DNA from: an uncultured Eubacterium sp.
GTDB taxonomy: Bacteria; Bacillota; Clostridia; Lachnospirales; Lachnospiraceae
Direction of reading: 5' to 3'
Assembly: GCA_947385775.1 (NCBI GenBank)
Contig: CANDMI010000012.1
Span: forward strand, 1-61,264
Length of the DNA: 61,264 bases
Shown here: positions 8,822 to 61,209 of the stretch, piece after piece
Numbering within the stretch: position 1 is the stretch's first letter
Layout of the letters: each line of letters begins with the position of its first letter
Notes under the pieces: generated by a model
Seen by the model: only the letters and a program-made list of their open reading frames with translations
What the model was told of the DNA's origin: nothing
Database searches by the model: none
Made by a program: the position numbers and the translations under genes

Positions 8822-9490
8822 ATGTTTCAGGAGGATGGCCTGTTTTCCAGGATATTCGGTTTTTTAGGTCAGCTGATCGCGCTGAACCTGCTTTGGATCG
8901 TATTTACGGTTCCGGTCATTACAGCCGGGGCGTCCACGACGGCATTATTTTACTGTACGTTAAAAATCCATAAGGATGGGGAGTGCAGGCCGTTTCATGA
9001 TTTTTGGAAAAGCTTCCGGCAAAATTTCAGGCAGGCGACGGCAATCTGGCTGCTTTTGTTCCTGGCCGGGGCGGTGGTTTATTTTGAATTTAAAACGATC
9101 CCTTCTATGCCGGGGATATTGTCTGCGGTGTTTTCCTATGTGGTTTATGCGGTGTGCGTTCCGCTTTGGCTGGTCGCGCTGTATATTTTCCCGACGCTGG
9201 CGGCTTTTCAAAATAAGATCCATAAGCTTTTGCTGAACGCGTTTTATTTTTCAGTAAAAAATCTTTTGTATGTGATTGCGGTTGCGCTGATTACAATACT
9301 GCCGATGTTTTTTACATTGGTGGACGCTGAGCTTTTCCCGGTTTACCTGCTGATTTGGATGCTGTGCGGGTTTACGCTGACCGCGCTGGCGGATTCCTGG
9401 TTTTTCTGGAAGCTGTTCCGCCCGTATTTTTCGCAGGAGGATACCGAAGCCGCGGCAAAGGATACCGGAACCGACCGGTATGTGTTTTAA
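8822..9490 (+). CDS. YesL-family (DUF624) membrane protein
   Basis: A 222-residue protein with about five membrane segments. It opens with the family hallmark around GLFSRIFGFLGQLIALNLLWIVFTVPVITAGAS (residues ~6-38), including the N-L-W-x-x-x-x-x-P-V-x-T-x-G-A-S pattern, followed by ALFYCTLKIHKD. YesL proteins accompany carbohydrate ABC transporters in Firmicutes, and their biochemical role is unknown. The position between the permeases and the alpha-galactosidase supports an accessory role in glycan uptake or sensing. Confidence 0.85.
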   Translation: MFQEDGLFSRIFGFLGQLIALNLLWIVFTVPVITAGASTTALFYCTLKIHKDGECRPFHDFWKSFRQNFRQATAIWLLLFLAGAVVYFEFKTIPSMPGILSAVFSYVVYAVCVPLWLVALYIFPTLAAFQNKIHKLLLNAFYFSVKNLLYVIAVALITILPMFFTLVDAELFPVYLLIWMLCGFTLTALADSWFFWKLFRPYFSQEDTEAAAKDTGTDRYVF

Positions 9491-20547: not shown

Positions 20548-20910
20548 CTATTCCTCCTTTGCACTGTCGATCATATGATGGATTTTGGAAATCTCATCAT
20601 CGGTCAGCGTCCTGCGTTTTGTAAACGCGGCGATAAATGTGGGGAGGGAGCCTGAAAAATTGTCCTCCACAAACTGTTCGCTTTGCATGGCATAATAATC
20701 TTCCCTTGAAATAAGCGACGTTACGATTTTGTCCTGTAACTGGAAGATTCCGTGTTCGCTAAGCTTTTTTAGGACGGTATAGGTTGTGGTGCGTTTCCAA
20801 TTCAGTTTGTCGGCGCATAGCTTGATCAGTTCGCTGGTTGCCAGTGGCTCATTGGCCCAGATAATGTCTGCAAAGCGGGATTCTACGGCGCCAAGTTTGT
20901 AATTTGTCAT
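20548..20910 (-). CDS. BlaI/MecI/CopY-family repressor
   Basis: A 120-residue winged-helix repressor: LGAVESRFADIIWANEPLATSELIKLCADKLNWKRTTTYTVLKKLSEHGIF is the DNA-binding region and the C-terminal half is a dimerisation helix set. The start at 20910 is chosen because AAAGGAGG lies 7 bases upstream; a longer frame from 20943 would run through the likely operator. The stop is 2 bases before the BlaR1-type gene, so the two are coupled. It should repress its own operon through the dyad just upstream. Confidence 0.88.
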   Translation of the reverse strand: MTNYKLGAVESRFADIIWANEPLATSELIKLCADKLNWKRTTTYTVLKKLSEHGIFQLQDKIVTSLISREDYYAMQSEQFVEDNFSGSLPTFIAAFTKRRTLTDDEISKIHHMIDSAKEE

Positions 20911-20924
20911 AAGCTGCCTCCTTT

Positions 20925-20964
20925 GTCTATTGTTAACAGTCAATTTAGTCTATCATAAATAGAC
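20925..20964 (-). promoter_or_regulatory. Candidate BlaI-type operator
   Basis: A perfect inverted repeat GTCTAT-CATAA-ATAGAC lies at 20948-20964, with a third GTCTAT half-site at 20925-20930 and a TGTTAACA palindrome between them. This is the position expected of an autoregulatory operator. The half-site differs from the staphylococcal TACA/TGTA type, so the link to this repressor is inferred. Confidence 0.6.
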
Positions 20965-21016: not shown

Positions 21017-21296
21017 GTAACGGTTCAGATATAGCGTTACATTTATGCGAACCGAACGCCGGGGGATGGGGGAGTGGCCTGACTTTCGGCTCCAACTCCA
21101 GAATGTAAGAAGCCCTAAACATTCTGCATTTACGTCAGCGCTACCGGACGGACGCGGAGCCTAATTCGCCCTGGCTGCGCCAGAAGCGAACGGCGCCGCT
21201 TACGGCTTCGCCGCCTGGTTATCAGGCAGAATGCTAACGGCTTCTAACATTCTTTCATACGTCACCGGAAGCCAAGCCACTCCCCCATCCCTCGGC
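21017..21296 (+). repeat. Large hairpin repeat, copy A
   Basis: A nested palindrome. The outer arms 21058-21078 and 21276-21296 pair at 20 of 21 positions. The inner arms 21100-21126 and 21227-21253 pair at 23 of 27. The GC-rich core 21144-21218 is shared, inverted, with copy B. A short GTAACG...CGTTAC hairpin at 21017-21040 precedes it and recurs, inverted, after copy B. No transposase or open frame fits it. It is either a non-autonomous mobile repeat or a structured RNA. Confidence 0.8.
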
Positions 21297-21444
21297 TGGT
21301 TTTCATAAGTTAAACACAATTAACTTTAGCCATTAATCTCAAACTTAAATGTGTTTTCTTACTTCTTTTATAGAAAAAACAAGATATCGACTGTATACTA
21401 GAAATTGCAAACAGCAATTTCGGTAACGCTTGTGAAAAACAGCC
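21297..21444. other. A+T-rich spacer between the two hairpin repeats
   Basis: About 150 bases, clearly more A+T-rich than the two flanking elements. It has no gene and no convincing promoter. A TTGCAAACAGCAA dyad lies near 21405-21418. Confidence 0.5.
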
Positions 21445-21723
21445 TGGAGAGGGAAGTTGCCCGGCCTGACTGGGGCGTATGGAAGAATGTTTAGAAGTTC
21501 TTTGTATTCTGTTTGATAAACAGGCGGCGAAGCCGTAAGCGGGGCCTTTCGCTTCTGGCGTTAGCCGAAGCGATTGAGGCGCCGCGTCCGTCCGGCTGTG
21601 AAAACATGAAATCAGAATACTTAGAACTTCTTACATTCTGGAATGGCCCCAGCCAGGCCAGGCAACGCCCATCTCCAAGCGTCCGCCCCTCTCCAAACGT
21701 AACATCTTATCTGAACAGTTACA
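21445..21723 (-). repeat. Large hairpin repeat, copy B (inverted)
   Basis: The outer arms 21445-21476 and 21646-21677 pair at 27 of 32 positions. The inner arms 21484-21511 and 21613-21639 pair nearly throughout. The core 21521-21595 is the reverse complement of copy A's core with modest divergence. The end module 21700-21723 is the reverse complement of copy A's 21017-21040 module with a few changes. A short open frame across this copy looks like chance. Confidence 0.8.
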
Positions 21724-21731
21724 TACTTGGC

Positions 21732-21760
21732 AAAAAAAGAGGGAGACAACCCTCCCCCTT
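21732..21760 (-). terminator. Terminator of the sodium symporter gene
   Basis: On the minus strand, GGGAGGG and CTCCCTC form a GC-rich stem around a few bases, followed by seven Ts, directly after the stop codon. Confidence 0.75.
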
Positions 21761-23290
21761 TTAACGCTCTAAAGAACGCTTCTTCGTGCTTGTGACTTTT
21801 TCATCGTAACACGTAAAAATCCGGTCAACTTTCCGTTTTTCGATTTTTGGCGTAACCAAGCTTACAGCAGGCACGATCACAAGCCCAGCAACCATGGCGA
21901 TCGCTCCCGCGTTAATTGGCGATGAGATGTAGCCGATAAACATATTCGAAACCGTAATCCCAACGCCCGCGGCAAAGCTTGCCCAGACCGCGGCTTTTGT
22001 AACGCCTTTCCAGTACAGTCCATATAAAAACGGGGCTAAAAACGCGCCCGCTAACGCGCCCCAGGAAATTCCCATAAGCTGCGCGATAAAGGTTGGCGGA
22101 TTTAACGCGATGACTACGGACAATACAATAAAAAATACGATCAAAACCTGCATTGTCAAAACCTGTTTTTTCTCGCTCATGTTTTTCATAACGCGGTCTT
22201 TTAGCAGATCCAGCGTCATTGTGGAGCTGGATGTCAATACAAGGGAGGAAAGGGTTGACATGGACGCGGATAATACAAGCACGACTACCGTTCCGATTAA
22301 AATATCCGGCAGTGTGGACAGCATATATGGGATAATGCTGTCAAAAATAACCAAGCCTGTTTCTTCATTATATATAGAAGGATTGTCAAACAGCCTTCCA
22401 AATCCCCCAAGAAAATAGCTGCCGCCAGCGACGACGATCGCAAAAAAGGTGGAGATCACCGTGCCTGTGTGGATGGATTTTTCGTCTTTAATGGCATAAA
22501 ATTTTCCGATCATCTGCGGCAATCCCCAGGTTCCAAGTGACGTTAAAATCACTACGCCAAGCAGGTTCATCGGGTCCGGGCCAAAAAAGGAAGTAAAGGC
22601 GCCAGGCTGGCCTATCGTAAGCGGCACATCGCTTGGAATCTGCGCCATGGTCTGAAGCGCATGTAAAAAGCCGCCCTGTCCGTTTAGTACAGCCGCGATC
22701 ACGGTCACGATCCCCACCAGCATAATGATCCCCTGTATAAAATCGTTGATGGCGGTAGCCATATAGCCGCCTAAAATAACATAGATCGCGGTAAATATCG
22801 CCATTACAACTACGCAATATGTATAAGGAATGTCAAACGCCATGCCAAACAGCCGGGAAAGCCCGTTATAAACCGAAGCGGTATACGGGATTAAAAATAC
22901 GAACACAATGACCGAAGCGGCGACTTTTAAAGCCTCGCTTCCATAACGTTCCCCAAAAAAGTCCGGCATCGTCTTTGACTGCAAATGCTGCGTCATAACC
23001 TTCGTGCGCCTGCCCAGTACGACCCAGGCTAGCAGGCTTCCGATCAACGCGTTTCCAATCCCGATCCAGGTAGAGGAAATCCCGTATTTCCAGCCAAACT
23101 GCCCCGCATAGCCTACAAACACCACCGCAGAAAAATAGGACGTTCCATAGGCAAATGCTGTCAGCCACGGGCCGACGGAACGCCCTCCAAGTACAAATCC
23201 ATCTACGCTTGCCGTATGCTTTCTCGAATACATGCCCACGCCGACCATAACTGCAAAAAAGATGACTAGTAAAATAATTTTGACGATCAT
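21761..23290 (-). CDS. Sodium:solute symporter (SSS family, PutP-like)
   Basis: A 509-residue transporter with about 13 membrane segments. Family marks include the GGRSVGPWLTAFAYGTSYFSA region near residues 35-54, YVILGGYMATAINDFIQG, and LSASMSTLSSLVLTSSSTMTLDL, with the Ser/Thr residues of the second sodium site. It is closest in character to PutP/PanF-type carriers; substrate (proline, pantothenate or another small organic ion) cannot be assigned. AAAGGAGAT precedes the ATG. It is a monocistronic unit. Confidence 0.88.
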   Translation of the reverse strand: MIVKIILLVIFFAVMVGVGMYSRKHTASVDGFVLGGRSVGPWLTAFAYGTSYFSAVVFVGYAGQFGWKYGISSTWIGIGNALIGSLLAWVVLGRRTKVMTQHLQSKTMPDFFGERYGSEALKVAASVIVFVFLIPYTASVYNGLSRLFGMAFDIPYTYCVVVMAIFTAIYVILGGYMATAINDFIQGIIMLVGIVTVIAAVLNGQGGFLHALQTMAQIPSDVPLTIGQPGAFTSFFGPDPMNLLGVVILTSLGTWGLPQMIGKFYAIKDEKSIHTGTVISTFFAIVVAGGSYFLGGFGRLFDNPSIYNEETGLVIFDSIIPYMLSTLPDILIGTVVVLVLSASMSTLSSLVLTSSSTMTLDLLKDRVMKNMSEKKQVLTMQVLIVFFIVLSVVIALNPPTFIAQLMGISWGALAGAFLAPFLYGLYWKGVTKAAVWASFAAGVGITVSNMFIGYISSPINAGAIAMVAGLVIVPAVSLVTPKIEKRKVDRIFTCYDEKVTSTKKRSLER

Positions 23291-61091: not shown

Positions 61092-61209
61092 TTGACTAGC
61101 CGGCATCTATATTGGTAGATGCTTTGAATTGCTTGAGCCGTGTGAGGGGAAACTCTCATGCACGGTTCTTAGAGGGGAAGGCGGTAGTAATACCGCTGAC
61201 CTACTCGAC
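61092..61209 (+). ncRNA. 3' end of a group II intron (domains IV-VI)
   Basis: Domain V is a hairpin at 61135-61168, GAGCCGTGTGAGGGG with CTCTCATGCACGGTTC around GAAA, the highly conserved catalytic stem. Domain VI follows with GGCGGTA-GTAA-TACCGC and the typical ending CTACTCGAC at 61201-61209. A GCATCTA/TAGATGC hairpin precedes domain V. The 5' part of the intron is missing, so it cannot splice by itself. Confidence 0.88.

Follow-up and report, generated by a model that had tools for sequence, protein, structure and literature searches.

A 706-bp noncoding DNA between a BlaI-type repressor gene and a symporter gene of an uncultured Eubacterium sp. is a copy of a transposon-like element that occurs dozens of times in a genus of mouse-gut Eubacterium, and the arms of its hairpins may be kept complementary by DNA copying from arm to arm and not only by selection on RNA. 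The window is the whole stretch of DNA that was analyzed (61,264 nucleotides); G000 is the window genome, other G numbers are genomes searched, and L numbers are loci that were fetched. The many copies, the terminal inverted repeats (TIRs), and the 8-bp target duplications in the TIR superfamily are best read as signs of a MITE-like element, and the mobile character of the hairpin pair is likely, judging from sequence.

The explanation that we favor, at a probability of about 0.6, is a MITE-like mobile hairpin pair that is moved in trans and whose outer arms are kept complementary mainly by arm copying. The nonautonomous plan would be TIR, hairpin A, AT-rich spacer, inverted hairpin B, and TIR, with the two halves being diverged, outward-facing relatives of the TwoAYGGAY hairpin. 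A transposase would probably act in trans on the common GTWACNGTTCAG termini and generate 8-bp target duplications. After insertion, as the substitution pattern suggests, the outer arms would be held complementary mainly through local templated copying at replication, and the inner stem would probably also be selected as a single strand, most simply RNA.

Architecture of the element

An earlier note on this DNA had described two related elements in opposite orientation between a BlaI-type gene and a symporter gene. This layout is borne out by the complementarity of the two halves (positions 21097 to 21176 against 21563 to 21642, 80 nt, 75% complementary; positions 21178 to 21247 against 21491 to 21560, 70 nt, 86% complementary) and by Pfam annotation of the neighbors, both on the minus strand (Table 1). 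A BlaR1-like M56 protein is also encoded on the BlaI-type repressor side. The halves are approximately 250 nt each, are inverted relative to one another, and face outward from the spacer. The TwoAYGGAY-like orientation of half B is on the plus strand, with a conserved arm motif at 21613 to 21642 (plus); that of half A, assigned through homology to half B, is on the minus strand, with the motif at 21097 to 21126 (minus). Predicted folding energies were −148.7 kcal/mol for half A and −137.4 kcal/mol for half B, and 0 of 200 dinucleotide shuffles equaled either value. The specific arm differences listed previously, GAAGCC/GGCTTC in half A versus GAAGTTC/GAACTTC in half B and CATTC/GAATG versus TATTC/GAATA, are present in the sequence. 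Features added here are the AT-rich spacer, an Rfam match in half B, and an imperfect 28-bp outer inverted repeat (79% complementary) that starts with GTAACNGTTCAGATA. The claim that no coding frame explains the element holds as far as tested, the sole open reading frame (ORF) of at least 80 amino acids (aa) starting within it (21513 to 21764, 83 aa) having matched no Pfam family at an E value of 0.001.

Table 1. Coordinates of the element, its parts, its neighbors, and related loci
Feature	Position	Strand	Remarks
Whole noncoding element, 706 bp	21017..21722		Both outer inverted repeats match GTNACNGTTYAG without mismatch
Left TIR, GTAACGGTTCAGATATAGCGTTACATTT	21017..21044	+	
Right TIR, minus-strand reading GTAACTGTTCAGATAAGATGTTACGTTT	21695..21722	-	
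Half A, nested hairpin	21047..21300	-	Fold z −10.4; aligned with 56 other hairpins
AT-rich spacer, 139 bp, 27% GC	21301..21439		Homologous to spacers in several own-genome copies
Half B, nested hairpin	21440..21700	+	Fold z −10.5
Rfam RF01731 (TwoAYGGAY) match in half B	21478..21645	+	Model positions 1 to 168; 50.5 bits; gathering score, 43
Neighbor outside the element, BlaI-type repressor (Penicillinase_R)	20548..20943	-	Pfam
Neighbor outside the element, sodium:solute symporter (SSF)	21761..23290	-	Pfam
Outward TwoAYGGAY pairs in four other genera	L415, L435, L436; L424, L454; L453; L425		

Copies and distribution

Searching for further copies, as the earlier note had suggested, returned many. 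Half A had 59 matches in the window genome (67 first-look candidates, 40 scored), and a full-length homologue of the 706-bp element with 87% identity was found at G000:C94:564-1277. When the best candidates, up to 13 per genome, were scored over 41 genomes, the whole element had matches in 10, namely, the window genome and 9 of the 12 others of its genus, and in 0 of 28 genomes outside the genus; G001 contained one weak match only, and G002 contained 36 matches. A pattern scan of named genomes yielded at least 117 stretches, and the 80 loci listed were all from uncultured Eubacterium sp. or Eubacteriaceae bacterium. Plasmids gave no match, and the arm motif had 0 matches in viral contigs.

Profile searches of the fetched stretches produced 142 hits, comprising 46 inward pairs (a plus hit followed by a minus hit less than 3 kb away, some pairs resting on weak or partial hits) and 50 singles, some of them near a contig end. 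No outward pair of A/B hairpins was present among these 142 hits, and at L077 two hairpins lay in the same orientation. All 17 pairs in the window genome combined one A-type half with one B-type half; A/B typing in other genomes means little because the profiles were built from the window genome. Spacers were up to 1,701 bp long, the shortest (0 bp) being one truncated case; those of the other genomes for the most part lacked mutual matches at an E value of 1e-4. The long spacer between half-elements at L068 (2628 to 3569) encodes a transglutaminase-like protein (208 aa), and that between fragmentary half-elements at L070 (2501 to 4201) encodes a 302-aa protein without a Pfam match.

The flanks of fetched copies were rarely alike between genomes, with three locus pairs matching. 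At L098 (G008) and L106 (G005), hairpin pairs were found between matching flanks in two diverged species, and their outer arms were very different in sequence and still complementary. These loci may go back to one old insertion shared by the two species, or they may mark a hot spot.

Termini, target duplications, and insertion sites

The terminus GTWACAGTTCAG also delimits many small palindromic repeats in the genus (31, 141, 163, and 194 bp). Among 67 inverted TIR pairs (24 to 800 bp, deduplicated, from the fetched loci), 14 were flanked by an exact 8-bp direct repeat, 6 more by a repeat with one mismatch, and another 6 by a repeat with two. None of the 67 had a 9-bp duplication, and no exact 8-mers were obtained in eight shifted controls in which the flank was moved by 1 to 8. 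At L272, two 31-bp elements (1362 to 1392 and 9074 to 9104) that are barely more than two back-to-back TIRs each had a perfect 8-bp duplication.

Among the hairpin-pair elements with both TIRs recognizable (two mismatches at most), one of seven had an exact 8-bp duplication, the 676-bp homologue at L105 (G007), with AATCATTG on both sides. The window copy had no target duplication, its flanks (AGGTTAGC and ATACTTGG) differing at 5 of 8 positions. Because the window copy lacks the 8-bp duplication and only one of these seven elements has it, the element is called MITE-like and not a proven MITE. TIR scores of 60 hairpins in four genomes were near the shuffled level; these hairpins may end differently and are not necessarily old. 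In TIR-less pairs (e.g., L113, L122, and L131), runs of G were seen just outside the hairpins on the left side, on the inward-reading strand, and runs of C were seen on the right.

The joined flanks of L105 were searched against 12 genomes, and one place spanning both flanks was found in G000, G001, G002, G003, G005, and G006. The element was in none of the four genomes in which this site was aligned: G003 alone came near a clean junction, and G001, G002, and G005 carried other short DNA. The interval was occupied in G010 by a hairpin hit between the flank matches (C79:14418-14669; L117), and G004 had a partial hairpin hit there (L057; C1 near 1376700). Together with the L105 copy on G007:C34, a hairpin element or remnant lies in this one gene interval in three species, and the interval is therefore either a recurrent target or the site of an old shared element. 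L105 also contains, at 2715 to 2775, a separate 46-bp palindromic GTTAC...GTAAC repeat (GTTACTTTTCACA...TGTGAAAAGTAAC) flanked by 8-bp repeats of GAATCATT; a query containing this repeat had, with matches to the flanks counted, 42 hits in G009 and 18 in G008.

Relation to TwoAYGGAY

Whether the element is identical to a described family, a question raised in the earlier note, has a different answer for each half: half B scored above the RF01731 gathering cutoff (Table 1), and half A was not listed at E values up to 1. Across 200 genomes of the taxonomic family, the window genome included, 35 had RF01731 matches and 29 had at least two, copy numbers being lower bounds because scoring was confined to the 13 best candidates of each genome; of 14 control genomes, none matched. 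The window genome also contains, at L080:2603-3147, an outward TwoAYGGAY pair with scores of 113 and 116 bits, and outward TwoAYGGAY pairs were found in four other genera as well (G113, G065, G020, and G050). Single TwoAYGGAY hairpins were common in other genera, with one hit at 17 of 20 scanned loci and two hits at 3 of 20, and G193 had two hits in the same orientation. In G203, G149, and G070, single TwoAYGGAY hairpins were located within quite different inverted ends of the GATTCGGGTGTCAAAAGG type, as judged by eye. Such hairpins within GATTCGGGTGTCAAAAGG-type ends were seen in other genera at L441 to L444 and L445 to L449, and possible 9-bp direct repeats were noted by eye at L446 and L449.

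Neither window half contains the AYGGAY motif; in the window family, 22 of 112 hairpins have it once or twice and 90 lack it. It was also missing from 10 of 26 strong, far higher-scoring TwoAYGGAY hairpins, and the motif alone is therefore not decisive. Among 17 scanned sources with A/B copies, L061 alone had a half that reached the gathering score. From the rarity of the motif and the halves below the gathering score, the window family is judged to be a diverged relative of TwoAYGGAY and not a plain member. A table of Weinberg et al. (2010; PMC2864571) gives TwoAYGGAY as a probable RNA that is probably not cis-regulatory. Among the titles listed for TwoAYGGAY or RF01731, none concerned mobility, and the passages on the family in PMC2864571 and PMC4333381 treat it as RNA and mention neither mobility nor TIRs.

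Covariation in the hairpin arms

Covariation was assessed in 112 near-complete hairpins from eight genomes, 30 of the 142 profile hits having been dropped as partial or weak. An RNAalifold alignment of 57 of these hairpins (both window halves and every second other) contained 68 pairs, of which 47 had changed on both sides. In this alignment 97.8% of cells were paired, compared with 83.6% in column shuffles and 37 to 44% with partners slid, the latter contrast being favored by a structure predicted on the same alignment. Structures predicted from one strand biased the strand test (G-U to A-C ratios of 268:63 with one strand folded and 128:160 with the other), and a strand-neutral pair set was adopted for that reason. 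With this set, 6,943 of 7,359 cells in all 112 hairpins were Watson-Crick, and all four pair types occurred at 14 of 67 pairs. The covariation is strong, and the core claim of the earlier note, that the arm changes preserve pairing and are not simple decay, was therefore right.

Changes were also counted within 11 genome-by-type groups (110 hairpins and 7,089 cells, two hairpins in smaller groups having been dropped). There were 403 two-sided Watson-Crick changes, 17 other two-sided changes, and 285 one-sided changes, and approximately 15 two-sided changes were expected under independence of the sides (summed over the 11 groups). Of the changes private to one copy, 144 were two-sided and 173 were one-sided. 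When all pairs were taken together, the rate of change was lower at paired bases than in unpaired columns in 7 of 11 groups, and G-U cells exceeded A-C cells (102 versus 55, P = 0.0002), mainly owing to the inner helices.

We read the arm changes as two regimes, a templated correction of the long arms and an RNA-like constraint inside. Outer helices 0 and 1 were more divergent than the unpaired columns in 10 of 11 groups, with pooled values of 0.131 and 0.095. Two-sided changes in these helices consisted of 140 transitions and 167 transversions and made up 62 to 70% of changed cells (one-sided plus two-sided Watson-Crick), and G-U and A-C mismatches, at 58 versus 39 pair-by-group cells, had no significant strand bias (P = 0.07). 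The inner stem behaved more like a selected RNA: helix 4 had 21 G-U versus 3 A-C cells (P = 0.0003) and 29 transitions to 3 transversions, and helices 6 and 7 had 7 versus 1 and 6 versus 0 G-U and A-C cells. Helix 3 had 0 G-U and 5 A-C cells, and helices 2 to 8 combined had 44 versus 16 (P = 0.0004). One-sided to two-sided ratios in core helices 5, 6, and 7 were 5:0, 26:10, and 24:3. In 26 TwoAYGGAY hairpins, 24 of them from other genera, G-U and A-C cells were equal (6:6), giving no strand support.

Pairing persisted where TIRs were unrecognizable. In the window genome, the paired fraction was 0.908 in copies with good TIRs (n = 9) and 0.929 in copies with poor TIRs (n = 19), two intermediates being omitted, and the trend with TIR quality was not significant (Spearman coefficient, −0.28; P = 0.13). 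The 60 hairpins in the four genomes without recognizable TIRs had values of 0.948 to 0.979. G007 and G009, with good TIRs, had values of 0.881 and 0.940, and G005, without TIRs, ran against the trend at 0.895.

The fast outer arms, the transversions, the lack of strand bias, and the pairing without TIRs favor templated correction from arm to arm. Such copying would explain the outer-arm pattern without selection, and template switching at quasipalindromes is a known form of templated correction (PMC7202029 and PMC8604942). Selection on the folded form, as earlier proposed, is thus supported only in part, by the RNA-like covariation of the inner helices, and the outer arms are explicable by arm copying. 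Several observations run against arm copying: two-sided changes formed no long tracts, gaps at paired columns were one-sided in 144 cases and mirrored in 1, and a copying event was never directly seen. The G-U excess over all helices, to which even the outer helices lean, favors strand-specific selection, and if the TIR-less copies have other ends and are not old, as is possible, the argument from aging would be weakened. Tandem repeats start directly beside the hairpin in the spacers of L125 (242 to 459; a 43-bp unit, 5.1 copies) and L116 (187 to 389; a 53-bp unit, 3.9 copies), which fits replication trouble there and proves nothing.

Candidate transposases and alternative explanations

No transposase for the element was found among the IS66, Y1_Tnp, and XerC-like candidates examined, and this, with the missing duplication at the window copy, counts against the favored explanation. 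IS66 was rejected as the mover: its transposase family (PF03050) was absent from G000, G007, and G009, and the elements of G004 and G005 whose ends were read terminate in GTAAACGGTA, not GTAACAGTTCAG. G004 has 94 PF03050 matches in one 6.7-Mb genome. A XerC/D-like tyrosine recombinase (309 aa; L195:1591-2520) is flanked by two GTWACAGTTCAG ends at a distance of 1,054 bp (1527 to 2580); it was rejected on two homologues, at 67 to 68%, without TIRs. At G010:C9, two exact TIRs about 2.45 kb apart enclose ORFs read by eye as encoding adenylate kinase and methionine aminopeptidase, with no transposase.

It is very improbable that the element is REPIN-like, mobilized as single-stranded DNA by a Y1/HUH (REP-associated) transposase. 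REPINs (PMC3116915) are likewise inverted doublets of palindromic, hairpin-forming units in which compensatory changes are common, and Y1_Tnp matches were obtained in 8 of 10 genomes searched. The link is inconsistent, however, as G002 with its 36 element matches had no Y1_Tnp and the window genome had only a 29.9-bit fragment with stops, so that the involvement of such a transposase, suggested in the earlier note, is unsupported. The units of the element, at approximately 250 nt, also differ from short REPs, and its TIRs come with 8-bp target duplications, which are not expected from HUH transposition. Equally hard to credit, and if anything less probable still, is a transcription insulator or bidirectional terminator selected at this site between the symporter and blaI. 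The two genes flanking the element do share a strand, the element would fold in the transcript of either, and a separate terminator-like stem is located just after the symporter (21740 to 21759, minus strand). Against this, the symporter was present in 8 of 12 same-genus genomes, and blastn, by which an empty site of the window copy was also sought, gave no counterpart of the left flank or blaI region at these 8 loci, so conservation at the window site cannot be claimed; the flanks of copies also seldom match between genomes.

A pair of divergently transcribed structured RNAs of the TwoAYGGAY type, with selection on the fold and spread being secondary, appears unlikely. The RF01731 match of half B, the G-U excess in helices 4, 6, and 7, and the transition-rich changes in helix 4 are as expected of RNA; CsrA binding by TwoAYGGAY has been proposed (PMC4333381); and a promoter scan gave a single weak promoter-like site on the plus strand of the spacer (21371 to 21399). 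However, the same scan gave none on the minus strand of the spacer, spacers elsewhere are mostly unmatched, AYGGAY is rare in the family, helix 3 has A-C but no G-U cells, and substitutions in the outer arms outpaced those in unpaired columns and included more transversions than transitions; it is also hard to imagine selection acting separately on each of dozens of copies scattered through a genome. Selection of the hairpins of a mobile element at the DNA level, as cruciforms or hairpins that serve transposition or replication, with dead copies simply inheriting paired arms from active masters, is rather doubtful. It would accommodate the outer-arm mismatches without significant strand bias and the split of own-genome copies into A and B types, but 144 two-sided changes were private to a single copy and pairing did not fall as TIRs faded; inheritance from a few masters is therefore hardly enough.

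Comparison with known systems and implications

The MITE-like reading is favored by TIRs, many dispersed copies, the absence of a gene, and 8-bp target duplications in one homologue and the TIR superfamily. Unlike MITEs, the element has very long internal hairpins in an inverted pair and spacers of up to 1,701 bp, and no autonomous partner was found among the candidates examined. Foldback transposons such as FB and Galileo are eukaryotic elements with long inverted terminal halves and a variable middle. The present element shares the long inverted halves and variable middle with them but is bacterial, and each of its halves is itself a palindrome. The likeness to TwoAYGGAY lies in half B, which covers all 168 model positions, and in the outward pairs also formed by stronger TwoAYGGAY hairpins, whereas half A has no match at E values up to 1, AYGGAY is absent from both window halves, and the hairpins of other genera are often single.

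A wider reading, which we put forward tentatively and at somewhat less than even odds, is that this is a natural case of hairpin arms coevolving by templated copying from arm to arm, in dozens of dispersed copies whose outer arms are under little or no selection, and that TwoAYGGAY is a fragment of a mobile element whose role as a regulatory RNA is secondary at most. In that case, RNA function in palindromic mobile families such as TwoAYGGAY, textbook-like as their covariation may look, could not safely be deduced from covariation alone. An orphan Rfam family also gains a genomic context, being multicopy, in an inverted pair in some genomes, and bounded by TIRs in the window genus, and the 112 near-complete hairpins from eight genomes are material for separating selection on the fold from mechanical arm correction, which has a direct bearing on the calling of structured RNAs from covariation. 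Elsewhere in the window, close to its right edge, an Rfam group II intron match (RF00029; 70.3 bits) was located at 61133 to 61209 on the plus strand.
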